Assembly: GCA_013327885.1 (NCBI GenBank)
Contig: JABUMY010000006.1
Location: forward strand, 248,001 to 312,000
Origin: Flavisolibacter longurius
Lineage (GTDB): Bacteria; Bacteroidota; Bacteroidia; Chitinophagales; Chitinophagaceae
Reading direction: 5' to 3'
DNA: 64,000 bases
Each line of letters starts with the position of its first letter. Within the stretch, counting starts at the first letter, position 1. Below, in pieces: positions 37,284 through 49,880 of the stretch. A program made the position numbers and the translations under genes. The notes under the pieces are model-generated. The model did no database searches. It was given only the letters and a program-made list of their open reading frames with translations, and was not told the origin of the DNA.

Positions 37284-40007
37284 ATGGCGATCAATAACCA
37301 ATTAACGATTACGCAGGAAGAAAGTAATGAACTCGTCTTTCTCCGCGACTTGCTACGATTTTCACCTGATGTTATTTGCACCCTGGATGGCGCCGGTCAT
37401 TTCCTTTATGTATCGGCGGCCACAGCCTCGTTGTGGGGCTATACACCCGAAGAACTGGCCGGCCGGCACTTCTCCAATTTTATCGTAGAAGAAGACAGGG
37501 CGGCTACGGAAGCCGTCGCAGCAAGCGTACAAAAAGAAGGAGAGGTGATTGATTTTGAGAACCGTTACCGTTGTAAGAACGGAGCCATTATGCCCATGGT
37601 GTGGCGGGCCCGCTGGGACCTTCAAAAGCAGGTGATTTACGCAGTGGGCCGCAATAATTCGGAACGAAAAAAAATCACCCAGCAACTGGCTGTACAGGAC
37701 CGCAACCTGCGCCGGGCTTACCAGGTAGCCAGTCTGGCCTGGTGGGAATACAGTGCAGCCGGTGAAAAATTTTTGTTTTCCGATGAGATGTTCCTGCTGT
37801 TGGGACTACCGGTTTCTGAAAGCCATGAATTGCCGTTTGAGAATTATTTATCACTTGTTCATCCCGATGACCAATCAAGGATAGCAAGGATTTTTTGTAA
37901 AGAGACCATAGCGCCCTTACCACCGGCACCGGAAAGTGTTTTTTACTACCAGCATCGGCTCTTAAAGCCGTCGGGTGAAATGATCATCGTATCACAAACC
38001 TCCGAAACCATCCGTGATACAGCAGGGGCCATCACTGGTTTTTACGGAACAGCACAGGACATTACGGAAAGCCAGTATTACCACCAACTGGAAAAGCTGG
38101 AAAAACAGGTGCTGGAAATGAATTCGATTTCCGTTCGCAGCCTGCAGGAAATGCTTTCCGTTTATTTGTTAGGCATCGAAGCGTTGCATTACGGTATGTA
38201 TTGCTCCATTATGGAAGCAAGAGGTGAGCAATTGTATAACGTGGCAGCACCCAACCTGCCAAAGGATTACCTGGAGGCCATCGATGGAATTTCCATCAGC
38301 GATAACATTGGTTCCTGCGGAACCGCCGCTTTCCGCAAAGAAAAAGTGATCGTTACGGATATTTTATCCGACAGCCGCTGGGAATCGCACCGGGTATATG
38401 CTGCGCAGCACGACCTTTTGGCTTGCTGGAGCCTCCCCATTCTTGACTCAAACGGAGAGGTGATGGCCACTTTTGGCTGCTATTACAAACAAAACAAAGC
38501 GCCATCTGCAAGGGAAGAAAATACCATCCAACGCACTGGCAGTATCCTAAAGATCATATTTGAAAGTTACCACCGCGAGAAGGCTTTGCAGGAAAGCAAC
38601 CAGCGCTACGAGATGGTGACCCGAGCCACCAATGATGCCATTTGGGACCTGGATATTGAACGGGATGAAACGACATGGGGCGAAGGTTTTTTTACTCTTT
38701 TCGGTCACGATTACAAAACAAAACATGTTGGTTCCGATGCCGTTTTTTCGTTTGTGCACCCCGATGATGTAGAAAGGCTGCAGCGCAGCCTTGCCAATGC
38801 GCTGGCCGAAGAAAAAACAACCTGGTCGGAAGAATTCAGGTTTCGCAAAGCCGACGGAACCTATGTGTATATTGTTGACAAGGCCATCCTTATCCGCAAC
38901 GAATCGGGCAAACCCATTCGCATGGTGGGTGCTGCACAGGACATTACGGCAAGAAAAGAAGCAGAGGAGGAAAGAAGATTATCAGAAGAACACTACCGCC
39001 TTCTTTTTCATAAAAGCCCCATTCCGAAACTGATCTTTGAACCCGGAAAGCTGCAACTGGTTTCGGCAAATGAAGCTGCTGTTGCTACTTATGGTTATGA
39101 AATAGCTGACCTGCCGAACCTGACGATGCTTGACCTGGTGGCCGAAGAAGAGCAGGCGTCACTGGCGGAGAGTTTGACGCTTACCGGCAACGGCAACCAC
39201 GTTACCACGATTTTCAGCCGGCACCGAAAAAAAGATGGGACGCTGTTTTATGTTGAAATGCGCAAGCAGCAATTGGAGTTTAATGGGAAAACACATTTCC
39301 TGGTCAGCGTTATTGACATGACGGAAAAACTTCGCCTGCAGCAAAAGCTGATCGAAGAAAAAGTAACAGCGCAAAAAGATGTGGCGAGGATCATCATCGA
39401 TACACAGGAAAAGGAGCGGAGTGTTATTGGAAAAGAGCTGCACGATAATGTAAACCAGTTGCTGACCACGGCCAAGCTTTACGTGGAGAACATAAAGCAT
39501 CTCCCCACTCAGGTAGAAACTTTTGCCGACAAAAGCATAGCGCTACTCTTACGGGCAATTAACGAAATCCGCTTTTTATCAAGGCAACTGGTTACGCCTG
39601 TCATCCATGATATTGGTTTTGAAGCAACGCTTGCCGAATTAAAGGACCACTACCTTTCACTGGGACTTTTTGATATGCAGTTAAAAACGTCGCTGCACGA
39701 GACAGAACTAAGCGAGGAATTAAAACTAACGCTCTACCGGATTGTGCAGGAGCAGTTGAACAATATTGTAAAGTATGCAAAGGCATCGCATGTGACGGTG
39801 AGTTTGCTGCAGGAAAACAATATCCTCTACTTAAACATTTCGGATAATGGGGTGGGGTTTGACCCCGGGAAAACGGCAAAGGGATTGGGGTTGCGTAATA
39901 TTCGTAACCGGGCAGAGGCTTACAAGGGAAATGTTACCATAGAGTCATCGCCGGGAGCCGGATGCCTGTTGCAGGCGGAGTTTCCGTTGGGGGAGGATTT
40001 GCTTTAA
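37284..40007 (+). CDS. Soluble PAS/GAF sensor histidine kinase
   Basis: A 907-residue protein without membrane helices. Order of domains: PAS (about 25-135), PAS with PAC (about 140-265), GAF (about 270-430, with GSCGTAAF), PAS (about 438-560), PAS (about 572-690), then a HisKA_3-type kinase. The phosphoacceptor His720 is in SVIGKELHDNVNQLL, followed by YRIVQEQLNNIVKYAKA (N box) and ISDNGVGFDP..GLGLRNI (G boxes). It senses an unknown cytoplasmic signal. No response regulator is nearby. A paralogue with a similar C-terminal half lies at 47172-49406. Confidence 0.92.
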   Translation: MAINNQLTITQEESNELVFLRDLLRFSPDVICTLDGAGHFLYVSAATASLWGYTPEELAGRHFSNFIVEEDRAATEAVAASVQKEGEVIDFENRYRCKNGAIMPMVWRARWDLQKQVIYAVGRNNSERKKITQQLAVQDRNLRRAYQVASLAWWEYSAAGEKFLFSDEMFLLLGLPVSESHELPFENYLSLVHPDDQSRIARIFCKETIAPLPPAPESVFYYQHRLLKPSGEMIIVSQTSETIRDTAGAITGFYGTAQDITESQYYHQLEKLEKQVLEMNSISVRSLQEMLSVYLLGIEALHYGMYCSIMEARGEQLYNVAAPNLPKDYLEAIDGISISDNIGSCGTAAFRKEKVIVTDILSDSRWESHRVYAAQHDLLACWSLPILDSNGEVMATFGCYYKQNKAPSAREENTIQRTGSILKIIFESYHREKALQESNQRYEMVTRATNDAIWDLDIERDETTWGEGFFTLFGHDYKTKHVGSDAVFSFVHPDDVERLQRSLANALAEEKTTWSEEFRFRKADGTYVYIVDKAILIRNESGKPIRMVGAAQDITARKEAEEERRLSEEHYRLLFHKSPIPKLIFEPGKLQLVSANEAAVATYGYEIADLPNLTMLDLVAEEEQASLAESLTLTGNGNHVTTIFSRHRKKDGTLFYVEMRKQQLEFNGKTHFLVSVIDMTEKLRLQQKLIEEKVTAQKDVARIIIDTQEKERSVIGKELHDNVNQLLTTAKLYVENIKHLPTQVETFADKSIALLLRAINEIRFLSRQLVTPVIHDIGFEATLAELKDHYLSLGLFDMQLKTSLHETELSEELKLTLYRIVQEQLNNIVKYAKASHVTVSLLQENNILYLNISDNGVGFDPGKTAKGLGLRNIRNRAEAYKGNVTIESSPGAGCLLQAEFPLGEDLL

Positions 40008-40718: not shown

Positions 40719-41945
40719 TTAGATCGAAGTACGTTTGTAAACAACAAATGATTTTCCTTTTTGCTGCCGGCAGAAGGAAAGAAAGGTTTGCCTGTCTCTT
40801 GTTTCAGTTACCACGGGATAGCTCACCCGCAGGCTGTCTTCGGACAGGTAGGTGTTTACCAGCGGTCGTCCTTCTTTGGAACGTTTTTGTACGCCGATGC
40901 GTGATTGAAGGGCTCCTTTCACGGGCGCCGTCTCATCCCAAACGATCACCAGTTCACCTGATTGCAGCGCTGTTATTTGTGGGTGTGATCCCCGCACATT
41001 AATGCTTTCGCGATCGCTAAAGCTTTCGCCCTTGTTGGCAGAACGGGTGTAGTAGCTGCCTTTGGGTTCTTGCCCGGTGTACCAGGCAAAATGCAGGCCT
41101 TCGCTGTTTTCGGCCATGGCAGGACCCGTATGCGGACAGGCATTCAGCACCCAATTGTCGGCACTGATGCGTTTTGGTTCTGTGAAGGTAATGCCACCGT
41201 CGTTGGATATTGTATGCACCATATCGCGAATGCCATCGTTCAAAATGCCCCGGTACAGCACATGAATGCCGCCGGAATTGTCAACAAAAAGGTCGGTGCG
41301 GCAGCACTGGCAGCAGCCTTGCTGAATATTGCGTTCGTTCACAAAACCGTCCTTGCCGTTTGTGCGGGCAAAATAAAGGGCAGAGCCTTCCTTTTTTTCC
41401 GTTTTCCGGTTGTCAAGCCAGGTAATGGCCACTTCGCCATCCGGCAGCAGCGCCATGTCAAAATAACGCTGGTCAAAGCCGGTCGTGTCGTTTACCAGGG
41501 GCCTGGCCTTGTTCCATGTTTTTCCCTTGTCAAACGATTGCGAATAAAACACCATCCCGGAATATTTATTCATAGGATTGGGATTGGCAGCTCCCCAAAC
41601 AGCAATGATCTCTCCTGACGGCTTAAACACAACCTTGGGAATGTTTTCCGAATGTGGGTGCACGTTAGTGCTGGATGGAATTACATTGGCGGGGCCAAAT
41701 GTTTGTCCTTCATCGATTGAAACGGCGTAACAAAAGACGGCGGTGCTGTCACTTGTATTTCGTACCCAGCTTAATACAAGATTGCCTTCCGTGTCTTTTG
41801 CCAGGTAAGGACAGGTGCCGGGAAGTGAATCTATCACAGGGTACACATCCGCACCGGCACTATTTTCGCGACTGCTGACGCCACAGGAAAGGAAAACGAG
41901 GGCACAAGCGTATAACAGGATTTGCGTGATATTATTTGTTTTCAT
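40719..41945 (-). CDS. Asp-box (BNR) lipoprotein, exo-sialidase-like fold, with CCxCC motif
   Basis: A 408-residue lipoprotein with signal peptide and lipobox FLSC (Cys21). Asp-box repeats are visible: SIDEGQTFG, SFDKGKTWN, SNDGGITFT and a weaker SANKGESFS, so the protein is a beta-propeller of the sialidase-like type. At about residues 208-212 it has CCQCCRT, a cysteine cluster typical of a subset of these proteins with unknown role. The frame runs upstream, but ATG 41945 overlaps the TonB receptor's stop by one base (TAATG), indicating coupling. Sialidase activity is not assured; the cysteines and neighbours suggest a thiophilic metal function. Confidence 0.72.
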   Translation of the reverse strand: MKTNNITQILLYACALVFLSCGVSSRENSAGADVYPVIDSLPGTCPYLAKDTEGNLVLSWVRNTSDSTAVFCYAVSIDEGQTFGPANVIPSSTNVHPHSENIPKVVFKPSGEIIAVWGAANPNPMNKYSGMVFYSQSFDKGKTWNKARPLVNDTTGFDQRYFDMALLPDGEVAITWLDNRKTEKKEGSALYFARTNGKDGFVNERNIQQGCCQCCRTDLFVDNSGGIHVLYRGILNDGIRDMVHTISNDGGITFTEPKRISADNWVLNACPHTGPAMAENSEGLHFAWYTGQEPKGSYYTRSANKGESFSDRESINVRGSHPQITALQSGELVIVWDETAPVKGALQSRIGVQKRSKEGRPLVNTYLSEDSLRVSYPVVTETRDRQTFLSFCRQQKGKSFVVYKRTSI

Positions 41946-44281
41946 TAATCTTTTTTTAGAAAGTTGGCGAGGTCGATGGAAAGTCCGGCAACAATGCTTC
42001 TCGGTTCCGCTAACTGGTAGCTTTGGCCAAACGCACTTTTGGTAGTGATATAGGAAAAATAACGGTCGGTGGCATTCATCAGGTTGGCCCAAACTTCCCA
42101 GCCGCTACCGTTGTACCCGGCACGGATGTTCAACACCGTATAGCCCTCGTACATTGCGCTGTTCTGCGGGTCGGTAAAATAGTTGCCTACGTGCTGGCAC
42201 TCTACCCCAATCCGCAAACCCTTTACAAATGCGGGCTTGTACCAGGCTTCGGCATTGTAAAGCCAGTTGGGTGCGTTGTTCATCTGCTTGCCGTTAAACG
42301 AAATGCCCTTCTCTACAAAATCAACAAACAGGTGCTTGCTGTAAGCACCGCTAAGTCGAAGGGACAGGTCGCTAACAGGCGTTGCCTGGAAACCAAGTTC
42401 AATTCCTTTATGATCCGTTCTGCCTGCATTCTGGTTGGCAAAAGACCCGTCGTCAAGCTTTACAGAAATGATCTCATTGGTACCCTTCAGGTGGTAAAGA
42501 CTGGCGTCGACTGAAACTTTTCCTTCCAGGAATTTTGTCCAGCCACCGACTTCGTAATTGTAAAAAACAGAAGGGGCGAGAAAAGGAACTTTTACGCCGG
42601 TGTACATTTCGGTTACCTGTGGCGGCACAAACCCCTCGCTGTAATTGGCGTACAAACCGGTTCGGGATGAAAAATTATACGTAGCGCCAATCTTGGGACT
42701 AACCCTTGTAAAGCGGTTGGCAGTATCGGGAGATCCGCTAAAAGCAGAAGGTGTCAGCTTATTGTTGAACCGGTACTGGAAAAGGTCATATCGCAGCGAA
42801 GCCACAACCCGCAACTTTTGGACTGGACTTATTTCCAGGTTGGCAAAGGCCGCGTAGTTGTTGATGCGGGTAGTATAATTTGTCAGGCTGCTGTCGGTGG
42901 ACGTATACCCGATATATTTCCGGCGAACAGTATCTTTTTGAATGCGGATATAAGAAGCCTCGTAGCCGGAAGGACTTAGGTCTACGCTGGCACCACCAAG
43001 TAGAACGGCTTTTTTCCAGGCAAAGCTTTGCCTGTGCTGGGCAAGCAGGGCATAGCTGGAAAAGCGGCTGGCATTGACTTCGCCGTGTGCCAGTTCTTTG
43101 TTACCAACCCATCTGCCATTCACTCGTCTGTAATCGTCTTTGATACGATAGGCAGGGTTTTGTCCAATGGTGTTGGCCCGGTGCACAAATGAAAGCGTTG
43201 ACTTACCCGCCTCGCTCCAGTTATGTCGCAGGGTGCTGCGATAGCGAAACGCATCCACTTTTCGATACGTGAAGGTTTGCGGACTGACAAAGGTCTTGGT
43301 GGCAAACATCAGGCTATCCACGCCACTGGGCATATCGCTGTAATAGTTTAGCCAGGTAGCACTGTTTGAAAGCGTTGTGCGGTTCGAAAAGCGGTAATCG
43401 ATTCTTGCCGTAACAATGCCTTTGTGAAAATCGGAGAATTCCTGGAAACCGTCTCTCTTATCGGCATAATAACCGCTGAGAACAAATCCCCAATTGCCGC
43501 TGCTGAAACTGGAATGCAGGTCACCACGTTTGTAGCCAAGATTGCTGCCTTGTGCCGACAGTTTTAAAACCGGCGTGGCCGTTGGCGCCAACGTAATAAA
43601 GTTTACGACGCCACCAATCGCTTCGCTGCCGTAAAGCGAAGAAGAAGGGCCCTTGATCACTTCAATGGATTTAGTGGCAGCCATGTTCATTTCAAGCAAG
43701 GCATTGTGGTTAAACACACCGGTGGTGCGAACCGGGATGCCATCTTCGAGGTAAAGAAAAAGGCTTTTGGTGGTCATGGGCTGGCGGATGCTCATCTGGT
43801 GCTGTTCGTTGCCAAGACTGACCATGTTTACACCGCTGACCTTGTTTATGACCTGGTCGGCGGTTACCGGTTTCGTATCCTGGATGGTCTTTGCCGTAAG
43901 CGCCGCAATGGCAATGGGTGCTTCGGAGCGGCGAATACCTTCGCCACGGTTTGCCGACACAACGATTTCCTGCATCAGCTGTTGTTTTTGTGTTAAGACA
44001 ACAATGGATACAGGGTTATCGGCAGAAACAATTTGCGAGGCATAACCCGCATGCGAAACAACGTGTTCTTTGCAGTTTTTGCACGACAGTTGAAAGCTAC
44101 CCGCCGCATCGGTGGTGCAGCCGCAGGAGCAGCTTTCATCCTGGCAGCGAACCGTGGCACCTTCGATGGGTTCTTTCGTGGTTTGGTCAATGACTTTTGT
44201 GCGGATACTTACCTGGCCCATTGCCGCCAGGTTAAAAAATAAAAATAAGGTAAAGGCTGCCAGCCTGGAATAGGTGGTCAT
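41945..44281 (-). CDS. TonB-dependent outer-membrane receptor with a cysteine-rich N-terminal domain
   Basis: A 778-residue receptor: signal peptide (1-22), CarboxypepD_reg-like domain (about 24-95), plug (EIVVSANRGEGIRRSEAPIAIAAL, about 105-235, with VIKGPSSSLYGSEAIGGVVNF) and a 22-stranded barrel ending in a strand before KKD. The N-terminal domain contains Cys46, 51, 53, 55, 67 and 70 plus His73 and His77, in place of the usual cysteine-free sequence. It is 100 bases after the CGGKC protein gene and coupled to the Asp-box lipoprotein. It probably imports a metal or metallophore; which one is not seen. Confidence 0.85.
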   Translation of the reverse strand: MTTYSRLAAFTLFLFFNLAAMGQVSIRTKVIDQTTKEPIEGATVRCQDESCSCGCTTDAAGSFQLSCKNCKEHVVSHAGYASQIVSADNPVSIVVLTQKQQLMQEIVVSANRGEGIRRSEAPIAIAALTAKTIQDTKPVTADQVINKVSGVNMVSLGNEQHQMSIRQPMTTKSLFLYLEDGIPVRTTGVFNHNALLEMNMAATKSIEVIKGPSSSLYGSEAIGGVVNFITLAPTATPVLKLSAQGSNLGYKRGDLHSSFSSGNWGFVLSGYYADKRDGFQEFSDFHKGIVTARIDYRFSNRTTLSNSATWLNYYSDMPSGVDSLMFATKTFVSPQTFTYRKVDAFRYRSTLRHNWSEAGKSTLSFVHRANTIGQNPAYRIKDDYRRVNGRWVGNKELAHGEVNASRFSSYALLAQHRQSFAWKKAVLLGGASVDLSPSGYEASYIRIQKDTVRRKYIGYTSTDSSLTNYTTRINNYAAFANLEISPVQKLRVVASLRYDLFQYRFNNKLTPSAFSGSPDTANRFTRVSPKIGATYNFSSRTGLYANYSEGFVPPQVTEMYTGVKVPFLAPSVFYNYEVGGWTKFLEGKVSVDASLYHLKGTNEIISVKLDDGSFANQNAGRTDHKGIELGFQATPVSDLSLRLSGAYSKHLFVDFVEKGISFNGKQMNNAPNWLYNAEAWYKPAFVKGLRIGVECQHVGNYFTDPQNSAMYEGYTVLNIRAGYNGSGWEVWANLMNATDRYFSYITTKSAFGQSYQLAEPRSIVAGLSIDLANFLKKD

Positions 44282-44327
44282 TTCGTTTGGTTTAAACGTT
44301 CAGCAATACAAAGATTCACACCCCATC

Positions 44328-44347
44328 ATTCTATACATACGTAGAAT
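44328..44347 (-). promoter_or_regulatory. Candidate inverted repeat upstream of the TonB receptor
   Basis: ATTCTA and TAGAAT arms flank an 8-base centre containing TACATACG. It lies about 47 bases before the receptor ATG, just upstream of a weak -7-like AATCTTTG. A regulator binding site is possible but unproven. Confidence 0.35.
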
Positions 44348-44380
44348 TGGATGAATCGTTAATTCAGATGCAGGATTTGT

Positions 44381-44755
44381 TTAAACGAACGTTGGCGGGT
44401 GGAAAACAGGGTAGGACCGGTCAACAGGATAAACCGGTGGAAGTGAAGGGTAATCGTCGGAATTTGCTTCGATTGTTAGTGAGGGAAGTACAGCAAATTG
44501 TTCAACCGAATAAAGAACCTGCTGGTTGTTTTCCAGCTTGTGTTGGGGATGCTGCCGGTTGTTGGATTCTTCTTCCTGCAACTTTTTCATCAACTGGCAT
44601 TTGCCACCGCATTTGAGCTGGGGACGGGTTTTGTTCTCGCAGTTTTTTGCGTACCATCCCGGGGAAATTTCAAAGGCAAGAACAGACCCCGCTTGTTGAA
44701 ACGTTTGCGCCGTAAAGGCCACCAGTAACACCCAAAAGAAGACGAACCTGCCCAT
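44381..44755 (-). CDS. Small secreted CxGKC protein, putative metal-binding
   Basis: A 124-residue protein with a signal peptide or N-terminal anchor (residues 1-27). A mature cysteine motif reads NCENKTRP ... KCGGKCQLMKKL, with Cys39, Cys49 and Cys53, then a long polar, Gln- and Asn-rich region and a proline-rich C-terminus (VYPVDRSYPVFHPPTFV). Short proteins with the pattern C..K..P...CxGxCxL are, from memory, widespread in Bacteroidota next to TonB receptors. ATG 44755 is used; the upstream frame continues to 44791 but begins before the signal sequence. The role is unknown; copper is a guess. Confidence 0.7.
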   Translation of the reverse strand: MGRFVFFWVLLVAFTAQTFQQAGSVLAFEISPGWYAKNCENKTRPQLKCGGKCQLMKKLQEEESNNRQHPQHKLENNQQVLYSVEQFAVLPSLTIEANSDDYPSLPPVYPVDRSYPVFHPPTFV

Positions 44756-44765
44756 GAAGTGAAGG

Positions 44766-44773
44766 CAAAGGTA
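44766..44773 (-). promoter_or_regulatory. Candidate -7 element before the CxGKC gene
   Basis: On the minus strand this reads TACCTTTG, an exact TAnnTTTG match. It ends only 10 bases from ATG 44755, so the leader would be very short. Confidence 0.35.
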
Positions 44774-47171: not shown

Positions 47172-49406
47172 TCAATCCTGGTGACGACATTCTTTTGCCA
47201 ACGGGAAGCTTGCCATCAACTTACAGCCTTTTCCCGGGCTGGAATCAAAGCAAAGCAAACCATTCAGTTGTTCGGCACGCATTTGCATATTGGAAAGACC
47301 AATGCCGCTGCGCTTTTGTTGCGGGTCAAACCCTTTTCCATCATCCGTAACCGTTAGTAACAATTTGCTTTCTACCACGGTCATCAAAAACCGGACATGT
47401 GTTGCTTCAGCATGTTTAATGATATTGGTGATATGCTCCTGCAGGATACGGTAAACACCCAGGTGCATTTCTTCACTGACCTGCAGCGTTTGCAGGTCGC
47501 AGATCTCTGCTTCAACAGCAAACTGGTTCGTTTCTTCCACCTGTTGCACAAGTTCCGTTATCGAATCGGCAAAGCTGTACAATCCTTGCATGGGTATGGA
47601 GAGTTTTTTCGACAACCGCCGGATCTCGGATATCGATTGTTGGAGGAGCTCTTTTGATTTGGCCACATAGTCGGTGCGGCGGCTTTCATCCTGCAGGATC
47701 ATTTCCTGGTAAAGCTTGATCGTTGTCAGGACAGGGTTTACACTGTCGTGCAGCTCGCGGCTTACAAGTGAACGTTCGTTTTCCTGGGCCGCAATTACGG
47801 CCGCTGTTGTTTGCTTTCGTTGTGCGGCCAGCTCCGCTTCAATGCGTTTTCTTTCGGTAGTATTGTTTTGAATACAGAAAAATTGCTGCAGGTTTCCGGT
47901 TTCATCAAACACCGGTTGAACACTTGTTTCCGCCCAATATATATCGCCATCCTTCCGGTAATTTAACAACTCCACCTGGATAGGTGACATGGTCTTGAAA
48001 TGGTCGCGGATGCAATTAACGGTATCCATGTTTGTTTGAGGACCAGCAAGTATACTCACTGGCGTATTTCCAACGGCTTCCTCAAAAGAATACCCGGTCA
48101 TGCGGGTAAATGCGGCGTTCACCCAGGTGATCGTTTCGTCGGGTGCGAGGATCAGTACAGCATTTTCCGTTTCCCTGGCAACAAGGGAAAGTTTATTCAA
48201 TTCTGCTTCAGTTCGTTTTCGCTCGTCGATGTCTTTAAAGAAAACAGATATGCCATCTTCCGACGGGTAAATATCCATTTCAATCCACCTGTTGATTTGT
48301 GGACTGATGTATTCGTGGTGTTGCGATTTTCCCGTTTTTAGCACTTGCTGGAACATCGGCAGGTAAAAGGAAAGTGATTTGTCCTGGAACAGGGAAGTGA
48401 TCATGGACCCAACCGCCGTTTTTGAAGGGATTCCGGTAATATTGGCCGCAGCCCTGTTCCAGTGATGGATGCGGTGGCTGAAATCAAACATAAAAAAGCC
48501 CTGGTTCATGTGCTCCAGTATACCGGCTAATTGCTTGTTTTGAGCTTCCATTCTTTTGCGGTTGGCCATTCGTTCGGCTTCCGCATTTTTGCGGTCGGTA
48601 ATATCGGTTTGTATGGCAAAGAACTGGGTGACGGTTCCGTCTAGACCATACACGGGTTGCGCATTGATCTCTGTCCAGTACTTTTCTTTTGTTTTGGTAT
48701 AGTTCAGGATCTGGGCCTTGAAAGGGAGTCCCATCCTGCTTTGCACATCGATATAGTTTTCGGTTTCAGGGTTTGTTTCGGGTCCGCGCAGGAGTTCCCC
48801 AATATATTTTCCTTCCAGCTCTTCAAACGTATACCCTGTTTTTTTTACAAAGGCATTGTTTACCCAGGTCACCTTTCCCTGGCTGCAGGTAATGATAACA
48901 AGGTTGCTTGTTTCCCGGGCAATTAACGAAAGGCGTGTCAGCTCTTCTTCTGTTTTTTTACGCTCGGTAACGTCCTTCAAAAAAATGGAAATTCCTTTAC
49001 TGGAAGGATACACATTTACTTCCACCCAAATATTGAAATGAGGGAGAAAGGACTCGAAATAAACAGCCTTTTTTTCCCGCATGGCAATGTGGTACTGCTC
49101 ATAAAAAACAGATCCTACCAGGTAGGGGAATGATGCCCAAAGATTGCGGCCGAGATAATCGTGCCGGTTAAGATTCAGCATACGTTCGCTTGCAGCGTTG
49201 GCATAAGCTACACACCAGGCCTCATCAAGTTCAACATAGCCATCGGTGATGCGTTCGAGCATTTGCTCTAATACAGACGCATTCTCTTCTCTGGGTGAGC
49301 AAGTGGGAGACAACTTTGATGCAGGCAATTTGCCCGATAGTAGAGGGTTGGAACGAGACTTGTTCTTTCTTTTTCCAGTTGCTGTTTGCAAATGCAGTTG
49401 GTTCAT
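47172..49406 (-). CDS. PAS-domain sensor histidine kinase
   Basis: A 744-residue soluble protein with four PAS domains (about 40-150, 155-275, 285-395, 400-530) and a HisKA_3-type kinase. The phosphoacceptor is His553 in RSLVSRELHDSVNPVL, with YRILQEHITNIIKHAEATH as the N box and DDGKGFDP..GIGLSNM as the G box. The second and fourth PAS resemble LOV domains (GELLRGPETN, VSILAGPQTN) but lack the flavin-binding cysteine. ATG 49406 is chosen over the upstream TTG. It shares its kinase part with 37284-40007. No response regulator is close by. Confidence 0.9.
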   Translation of the reverse strand: MNQLHLQTATGKRKNKSRSNPLLSGKLPASKLSPTCSPREENASVLEQMLERITDGYVELDEAWCVAYANAASERMLNLNRHDYLGRNLWASFPYLVGSVFYEQYHIAMREKKAVYFESFLPHFNIWVEVNVYPSSKGISIFLKDVTERKKTEEELTRLSLIARETSNLVIITCSQGKVTWVNNAFVKKTGYTFEELEGKYIGELLRGPETNPETENYIDVQSRMGLPFKAQILNYTKTKEKYWTEINAQPVYGLDGTVTQFFAIQTDITDRKNAEAERMANRKRMEAQNKQLAGILEHMNQGFFMFDFSHRIHHWNRAAANITGIPSKTAVGSMITSLFQDKSLSFYLPMFQQVLKTGKSQHHEYISPQINRWIEMDIYPSEDGISVFFKDIDERKRTEAELNKLSLVARETENAVLILAPDETITWVNAAFTRMTGYSFEEAVGNTPVSILAGPQTNMDTVNCIRDHFKTMSPIQVELLNYRKDGDIYWAETSVQPVFDETGNLQQFFCIQNNTTERKRIEAELAAQRKQTTAAVIAAQENERSLVSRELHDSVNPVLTTIKLYQEMILQDESRRTDYVAKSKELLQQSISEIRRLSKKLSIPMQGLYSFADSITELVQQVEETNQFAVEAEICDLQTLQVSEEMHLGVYRILQEHITNIIKHAEATHVRFLMTVVESKLLLTVTDDGKGFDPQQKRSGIGLSNMQMRAEQLNGLLCFDSSPGKGCKLMASFPLAKECRHQD

Positions 49407-49880
49407 GTATAAGTTTTCACAGGTATGTAGACCGTAACTTTTATCTTGCCTCAAAGGCTGATAGCTGCACCCTTTCAATCAACTGAATAATGTCTATTGA
49501 AACAGTCAATTGCAATCATTCGTTGTCCATTTCTGCAGGGCTATGGTGCCCATACAATTTTGCGGCGACGAATAGCAGCCTTTAAAAAGACAATCGTTTG
49601 CTAAGTCTGCCAACGAAGTTGCAAGAACCGCAATAAATGATTAGAAATTTCCTGTATTCGTCCGGTGGCCCAATCTCATCGGTACAACTATGTTGAAAAT
49701 TGACCTGTTTCAAGCCGCTTGTCAACCAGTAAGCGTAATCACTTGGTCTTGTGTCTATGTTTTAGCTTATTGGCAAAATCCGTGGCTTATCAACGAAAAA
49801 ATGGTTGCATCAAATAATGGGCGAGGTAAAACGCAGCTGTTCTTAACACAGTTGGCAAATTTAATTGCAGGATGGTATCC
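49407..49880. other. 474-base intergenic region
   Basis: No supported feature. A 77-residue plus-strand ORF (49690-49923) overlaps the next gene and has no recognisable domain. Confidence 0.5.

Follow-up and report, generated by a model that had tools for sequence, protein, structure and literature searches.

A conserved Bacteroidota operon of a small cysteine-containing leader, a TonB receptor and an Asp-box propeller: probable copper acquisition under a proposed nascent-chain sensor

Introduction

What does a small exported protein with a tight cluster of cysteines do at the head of an operon that continues with a TonB-dependent receptor and a cysteine-marked lipoprotein? The question is raised by a locus of Flavisolibacter longurius (Chitinophagaceae, Bacteroidota) at positions 248,001 to 312,000 of contig JABUMY010000006.1 (assembly GCA_013327885.1); this whole stretch of 64,000 nucleotides is called the window below, and positions are counted within it. 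On its minus strand, from 44755 down to 40719, lie three open reading frames (ORFs) for a small protein, a TonB receptor and an Asp-box lipoprotein. An earlier reading made from the letters alone (the sequence-only reading) had described these genes, the positions of their cysteines, a TAATG overlap of the last two and a TAnnTTTG element before the first, all of which could be confirmed. It had also proposed that the three proteins capture and import a thiophilic metal, perhaps copper, by means of a surface propeller, a receptor with a metal-docking N-terminal domain and a small periplasmic chaperone. Control by a copper-reading nascent protein is already known from other bacteria, for example from CruR of Bordetella pertussis, which is compared below. 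By analogy with such systems we propose that the locus is probably a copper-acquisition operon of leader, TonB receptor and cysteine-rich propeller that is switched by translation arrest, and that the small protein, termed the leader from here on, is quite probably an arrest-type copper sensor rather than a chaperone. What we observe is the conservation of the operon, the copper genes that neighbour its leader family, and the statistics of motif, spacing and base composition of this family.

Results

The three genes form a conserved operon

The leader gene (44381..44755) encodes 124 residues, the receptor gene (41945..44281) 778 and the lipoprotein gene (40719..41945) 408, all on the minus strand, and the TAATG overlap of the last two ORFs lies at 41947-41943. 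A search with the lipoprotein gave matches, many of them distant, in 29 of the 98 genomes of the family and in 107 of 296 across the phylum; in 14 of 40 neighbourhoods a small protein, a receptor and the lipoprotein follow one another in this order, two of the 14 having extra ORFs called between the small protein and the receptor. We further scanned named genomes with an Asp-box profile and kept 80 loci (Chitinophaga, Niastella, Pontibacter, Rufibacter, Flavobacterium and others), 64 of which contain the three genes directly in this order. A conserved three-gene operon is thereby supported, and the co-occurrence of the three families that the sequence-only reading had looked to is borne out. 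The same order with a split receptor frame is present in L166, the loci L146, L158, L159, L161 and L168 start within the receptor at a record edge, L162, L164, L174, L177, L183 and L218 have the receptor and no leader among the three upstream genes, and neither leader nor receptor stands with the lipoprotein in L153 and L154. In two Niastella loci (L149, L152) the leader directly precedes the Asp-box gene with no receptor between them; leader and propeller thus seem able to occur in the absence of this receptor.

The leader family shares a cysteine core and a terminal PP

In the window protein, an N-terminal hydrophobic segment is followed by a cysteine cluster of the form C-x9-C-x3-C (residues 39-53, 44597..44641, minus strand), made up of C39 and of C49 and C53 in CGGKC, which is the proposed copper sensor. 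A variable linker then leads to FHPP (residues 118-121, 44393..44404), the proposed arrest motif, which the sequence-only reading had not remarked on and which stands three residues before the stop (FHPP-TFV). Profile scans placed the protein in no Pfam or NCBIfam family over a cut-off, and we recognised no description of the leader family in the literature searched, where most subscription journals fell outside coverage. A leader profile matches 120 of the 296 phylum genomes. From this search 150 of the matches were listed and 80 of the listed places were read, so that weakly scoring leaders are under-represented.

An alignment of 16 small proteins has C39, N41, P45, C49, G51, C53, P120 and P121 in all 16. 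For the wider counts identical leader proteins were merged, as also in the gap-folding, base-composition and N-terminal-half counts below, and leader starts are mechanical calls, some of them possibly wrong. On this basis the strict core CxNxxxPxxxCxGxC is present in 131 of 162 distinct leaders and a loose three-cysteine pattern in 155. All 162 carry PP within their last ten residues, as against 20 of 1,893 other genes of those loci, and the ends read FHPP in 106 cases and FRPP in 16, which gives F[HR]PP in 122. Selection of the motif by the search model was excluded by the use of a profile of the N-terminal half alone, from which the FHPP part is absent. This profile matches 158 of the 248 genomes of the order, and FHPP ends 29 of 29 ORFs from its best 30 loci; seven of these ORFs are rows of the profile, 22 are not, and L315 gave no separate row.

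The distance from the cysteines to PP has a median of 66 residues (5-95% range 63-69) in 115 copies with the strict core. The linker between the cysteine region and FxPP shows 42% identity across 114 pairs, compared with 69% for the cysteine regions and 74% for the receptors, at a length of 62.6 +/- 1.85 residues; these linker statistics refer to the 61 of the 80 loci that hold one leader (strict core and F-x-P-P end), one receptor and one propeller each. Leader copies also occur as adjacent pairs (L075:11475-12476 and L260), and two leaders share a locus in L138, L240, L241, L243, L246 and L270 as well.

Upstream of the window leader, a Bacteroidota-type -7 promoter element was read directly (TACCTTTG, 44766..44773, minus strand). 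Of 159 leader copies across the family, 55% have TAnnTTTG at most 90 nt upstream, compared with 19% of 770 regions upstream of other genes. In the window gene, the final 120 nt (44384..44503) are C-rich and G-poor, with C minus G at +0.20, and constitute the proposed Rho loading region. The family mean of this difference is +0.131 (157 copies) against -0.019 in 547 background genes, and C exceeds G in 98.7% of the leaders against 36.6% of the other genes. A conserved cysteine-to-PP spacing and a C>G 3′ end, both of which a CruR-like leader would have, are thus found. Between leader and receptor lie 99 nt (44282..44380), the proposed termination zone, and in the family a median of 105 nt separates the leader from the next gene on its strand (n = 165). 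A stem-loop in this gap was considered and rejected, since leader gaps are not more structured than other gaps: with z scores from mononucleotide shuffles only, z is below -2 in 40% of 112 leader gaps and 36% of 120 others, with means of -1.67 and -2.06, respectively.

Copper-gene markers lie behind most of the leaders read

Leader context was read at 80 loci outside the set of window-type loci, which gave 86 leader copies, with none from L255. Behind 60 of the 86 copies, MbnP/MbnH, an OprC-like receptor with CxxxM or SCO1 is encoded within four same-strand genes downstream, and behind 49 when the SCO1-only cases are removed; the leader hence heads copper operons, as a CruR-like leader would. 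The marker profiles came from the first 20 context loci, which were hand-picked near the top of the ranking, and in the 60 loci read after these a copper marker is present for 47 of 65 copies. The receptor family of the window stands behind 10 of the 86 leaders, followed by PepSY_TM in nine of these ten cases. Examples downstream of leaders match MbnP (7.8e-53), CCP_MauG (3e-53) and PepSY_TM (2.2e-11) of Pfam over the cut-offs, and a gene just upstream of a leader in L136 matches SCO1 (4.8e-24), likewise over the cut-off. TonB-copper of NCBIfam is the top match for three of four OprC-like receptors scanned and the second for the fourth, all below the cut-off.

Starting from MbnP, at least 38 of 101 matches in the same 296 genomes (three of the 101 under the family cut-off) have a listed leader at most 2 kb upstream, where about 0.04 would be expected; 38 is a lower bound because some leader matches are unlisted. 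MbnP and MbnH occur in methanobactin operons, for which it was stated that no data then linked close MbnP homologues to copper (PMC3621798). NCBIfam names the MbnP family copper-binding. Later work reportedly found that MbnP binds copper via kynurenine. In the window genome, the window copy is the sole leader match among the matches listed. Taken with the gene context, copper is very likely the metal of the operon, and the thiophilic metal of the sequence-only reading, with copper as the best candidate, gains support both from the copper-gene neighbours of the leaders and from the roseobacter plasmid cluster described below.

The receptor has invariant plug residues and clade-specific cysteines

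The receptor contains a CarbopepD_reg_2 domain (Pfam matches over cut-off), and its structure model has a predicted local distance difference test score (pLDDT) of 84. Its seven cysteines are C46, C51, C53, C55, C67, C70 and C695, the first six forming the stretch in the N-terminal domain (C46-C70, 44072..44146, minus strand) that the sequence-only reading took for a key docking site. A docking role of this domain is not supported, because most relatives lack these cysteines: 52 of 70 receptors have none or one, and at least four are present in 10 of 70, in at least one of which (L199) the number is reached through signal-peptide cysteines. The N-terminal cysteines are thus clade-specific, and we rejected them as the core of the system in general. 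Conservation of the cysteines in homologues, to which the earlier reading had tied its proposal, accordingly held for the leader and for the propeller and failed for the receptor.

No cysteine lies in the plug of the window receptor, which therefore has no CxxxM. Invariant in 34 of 34 receptors are the plug residues N158, E159, Q160, H161 and M163 of the motif NEQHQM (residues 158-163, 43793..43810), of which E159, H161 and M163 are candidate copper ligands, and N191, H192 and N193 of the motif FNHNA (residues 190-194, 43700..43714). Membership in OprC was rejected, as CxxxM is missing; TIGR01778 (OprC/NosA) is not among the 25 of 26 NCBIfam matches listed. The CrtA entry 9RVQ is the best solved receptor by single sequence (1.1e-17) and the third by profile, after two PqqU/YncD entries; its absence among the 50 structural matches listed for the receptor excludes nothing. 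Identity with CrtA, the receptor of the CruR system, was considered and found to have weak sequence support, the barrel part around the essential His of CrtA (H358) lying outside the receptor alignment.

The propeller carries an invariant cysteine set

The lipoprotein, whose status as such was read from its N-terminus, matches BNR_2 over the cut-off (2.1e-10). Its propeller model has a pLDDT of 90 (mean of 60 in the block around 261-270), and the structural matches include sialidases, BT3686 and PHL lectins. Its cysteines are C211, C212, C214, C215 and six others including C270, which the sequence-only reading had not pointed out. Ten residues are shared without exception by 41 of 41 diverse members: C212, C214, C215, C270, R232, R240, D241, W265, P271 and G274. 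They comprise the CxCC of CCQCC (residues 211-215, 41301..41315, minus strand), which is invariant across the family, and a second half of the cysteine set between W265 and P275 (41121..41153). CxCC and W..CPxxG are kept in 80 of 80 closer propellers.

With tblastn the lipoprotein found 64 plasmid records, three of which were read. In Phaeobacter and Leisingera, which amount to one case because their plasmids are nearly identical, the homologue closes a cluster of TolC, a copper oxidase, a copper-binding protein, an azurin-like protein and cytochromes c; on a Marinovum plasmid a multicopper oxidase lies about 3 kb from the homologue among unrelated genes. Both C-x-C-C-Q-T and G-C-P-V-N-G-P are retained by the proteins from Phaeobacter and Marinovum. 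As for individual copies, L325:6154-7224, in the copper cluster, and L326:5932-7176 carry CTCCQT/CSCCQT with GCPVNGP, and the roseobacter plasmid homologues are annotated as sialidase family protein or hypothetical protein. Directly ahead of more distant propellers in L072, L076, L094 and L144 stands a gene for a TlpA-like thioredoxin, assigned by Pfam in L144 and by eye elsewhere, and the cysteines of these propellers may accordingly have to stay reduced; the labels TlpA, except in L144, and Rho are our own reading. Sialidase function was considered and set aside, the fold and the conserved residues being what was examined. Whether the propeller is a surface capture protein is an even call. 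Beyond the operon, long ORFs at 37284-40007 and 47172-49478 flank the region on opposite strands and by eye resemble multi-PAS histidine kinases.

Discussion

Proposed mechanism

Arrest, Rho termination, copper binding and import are the steps that we infer for this operon. At low copper, a ribosome would stall on the C-terminal F-H-P-P of the leader and, while stalled, would mask the C-rich 3′ end of the leader gene and thereby block Rho (or another terminator), so that receptor and propeller would be expressed. Copper bound by the nascent C-x9-C-x3-C would relieve the stall, upon which the ribosome would depart and the rest of the operon would be switched off. The receptor would import copper or a copper chelate over the outer membrane, perhaps via E159, H161, M163 and H192 of its plug, and next to it the propeller, with CxCC and the other cysteines of its set, would capture copper or pass it on, in the slot that a PepSY_TM (CrpH-like) protein holds in sister operons. 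Going by the geometry, we infer that the cysteine cluster would lie beyond the Sec channel, and would sense the copper of the periplasm and not that of the cytoplasm, because it is about 66 and not about 47 residues away from the stall site. A wider proposal, against which we lean slightly, is that Bacteroidota possess a widespread F[HR]PP family of nascent-chain sensors that evolved independently of DUF2946, controls many of their operons for copper acquisition (with receptors, MbnP/MbnH or SCO1) and reads periplasmic copper.

Several findings weigh against the arrest-switched copper operon. In the leader family, seven of the 162 proteins lack even the loose three-cysteine pattern and 40 end in an xxPP other than F[HR]PP; this motif itself differs from the RAPP of CruR, and we know of no proof that F[HR]PP stalls ribosomes. 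Not every leader is clearly first in its operon, because for 20 of 159 another gene on the strand lies under 60 nt upstream. The C>G bias is partly a matter of amino-acid content, because in the leaders C is not raised at fourfold sites (0.244 versus 0.259, with G at 0.17 versus 0.24). Behind nine of the 86 leaders nothing was recognised, four precede an OprC-like receptor without CxxxM, and three precede only another, unassigned TonB receptor. The SCO1 labels come from a profile built on a single sequence, and some of their scores are weak (38 to 110 bits); the NCBIfam matches to MbnP, MbnH and TonB-copper fall under their cut-offs, even at 6.1e-67 for MbnH. The window genome has an MbnP (G000:C52:67604-68248) with no leader nearby, the nearest solved relatives of the receptor are general rather than specifically copper receptors, a comparison of the leader with eight DUF2946 members of the phylum gave an hhalign probability of 0.9%, and our counts take related genomes as separate.

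Alternative explanations

The sequence-only reading had seen in the small protein a periplasmic chaperone, and a stable copper carrier between receptor and inner membrane, with the cysteine cluster and the His of FHPP as ligands, would account for the cysteines, for the copper neighbours and for the hydrophobic segment that precedes the cluster in 84% of 115 leader copies. Such a carrier would however have no need of a universal terminal PP, of a linker that changes quickly in sequence at constant length or of a 3′ end rich in C and poor in G, and its His ligand would be missing from the 50 of 162 copies in which another residue stands before PP. We regard it as unlikely; a regulatory arrest peptide accounts better for the end motif, the linker and the base composition. 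To the same degree improbable is control as described for CutF, in which the nascent leader slows the ribosome and thereby opens a stem-loop that hides the next start, with no prevention of Rho termination. CutF indeed has a cysteine motif, a Pro-rich end and a stem-loop over the next start (PMC9973294), but the leader gaps studied here have no excess of structure, and CutF precedes a copper oxidase gene whereas these leaders precede receptors, MbnP/MbnH and SCO1.

The proteins could also serve another thiophilic metal such as zinc, silver or mercury, several soft metals being bound by cysteine sites, or copper detoxification instead of uptake, as the roseobacter propeller homologue beside a copper oxidase and TolC might suggest. 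A TonB receptor imports, however, and MbnP/MbnH, OprC-like receptors with CxxxM and SCO1 downstream of the leaders point to copper supply, which leaves this alternative slightly less probable than the two before it. Least probable by far is a sialidase-like, carbohydrate-active propeller with a receptor for glycan uptake: the sialidase fold and the BNR_2 match are what one would expect of it, but the ten invariant residues of the propeller are Cys, Arg, Asp, Trp, Pro and Gly around CxCC and CPxxG, and homologues stand beside copper genes on roseobacter plasmids. The arrest-switched copper-acquisition operon hence remains the reading that we prefer, and it suggests a role for a cysteine-marked propeller family whose plasmid members carry sialidase annotation.

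Comparison with known systems

The closest parallel is the CruR-CrtA-CrpH system. CruR of B. pertussis is described as a protein with predicted export, a CXXC motif and RAPP three residues from its end, whose gene has a C>G bubble and is followed by a 162-bp gap and by genes for a TonB receptor and PepSY_TM; copper is held to relieve its stall, whereupon Rho ends transcription (PMC9426467, PMC12914433). An in vitro demonstration of the arrest followed later. PepSY_TM is discussed as a possible copper reductase (PMC13038864). The window operon is alike in its small exported protein with a cysteine motif, PP near the stop, a C>G 3′ end and a long gap, in the TonB receptor that comes next and in the presence of a third gene, which in sister operons of the phylum is PepSY_TM itself. 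It differs in that its own third gene encodes an Asp-box propeller, in the cysteine pattern (CxNxxxPxxxCxGxC versus CXXC), in F[HR]PP instead of RAPP at a similar distance from the stop, in the distance from the last cysteine to PP (about 66 residues versus about 47 by the residue numbers of PMC9426467) and in a receptor that is not specifically CrtA-like. Neither the window protein nor any of 15 aligned relatives matched DUF2946 (PF11162) at E values of 1 or below, and homology was detected neither by Pfam nor by profile comparison; the mechanism is argued by analogy because this profile similarity is lacking. The leader is thus CruR-like in layout and, by three tested features, outside the CruR family. 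DUF2946 is rare in the phylum (8 of 296 genomes, five over the cut-off), and its members have 44-49 residues from the last cysteine to PP in seven of eight cases, the eighth, with a late cysteine, having six. The phylum proteins of this type (L316-L323) end in RAPP or RGPP.

CutF of the CutF-CutO-CutG system of Rhodobacter capsulatus shares with the leader the character of an exported nascent copper sensor, as we propose it, with a cysteine motif and a Pro-rich end ahead of copper genes; there, the stem-loop shields the next start site and the oxidase is controlled through it (PMC9973294), whereas the gaps here have no special structure. OprC imports copper in a TonB-dependent manner and is encoded in an operon with a FoxB-like gene (PMC8610252). 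In other genomes, leaders of the family described here precede OprC-like receptors with CxxxM, while the window receptor has the invariant NEQHxM and NHN in its plug instead. For a propeller lipoprotein beside a TonB receptor there is a precedent in BtuB-BtuG of Bacteroides, since complexes of this pair (8blw, 8bmx) are among the structural matches. BtuG is a propeller that captures its ligand; the ligand and the sequence family are different, and we know of no cysteine site in BtuG.

Finally, leaders with RAPP/RGPP arrest peptides precede TonB-receptor genes across Gram-negative bacteria, and in the survey that lists them the copper-related ones did not turn up in some groups, among them Bacteroidota (PMC12992588), for which leaders ending in NSP-stop or NAP-stop are described that group with secA/secDF and not with copper genes (PMC10987492). 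In all of these a Pro motif stands at or close to the C-terminus of a small protein whose gene precedes the genes under its control, as is proposed for the leader. If our reading is true, the leader family would fill the Bacteroidota gap in the RAPP/RGPP survey, would serve as a marker by which genome searches could find copper-supply genes in a major phylum, and would show metal sensing by a nascent chain to have been solved a second time, apparently in an unrelated way.

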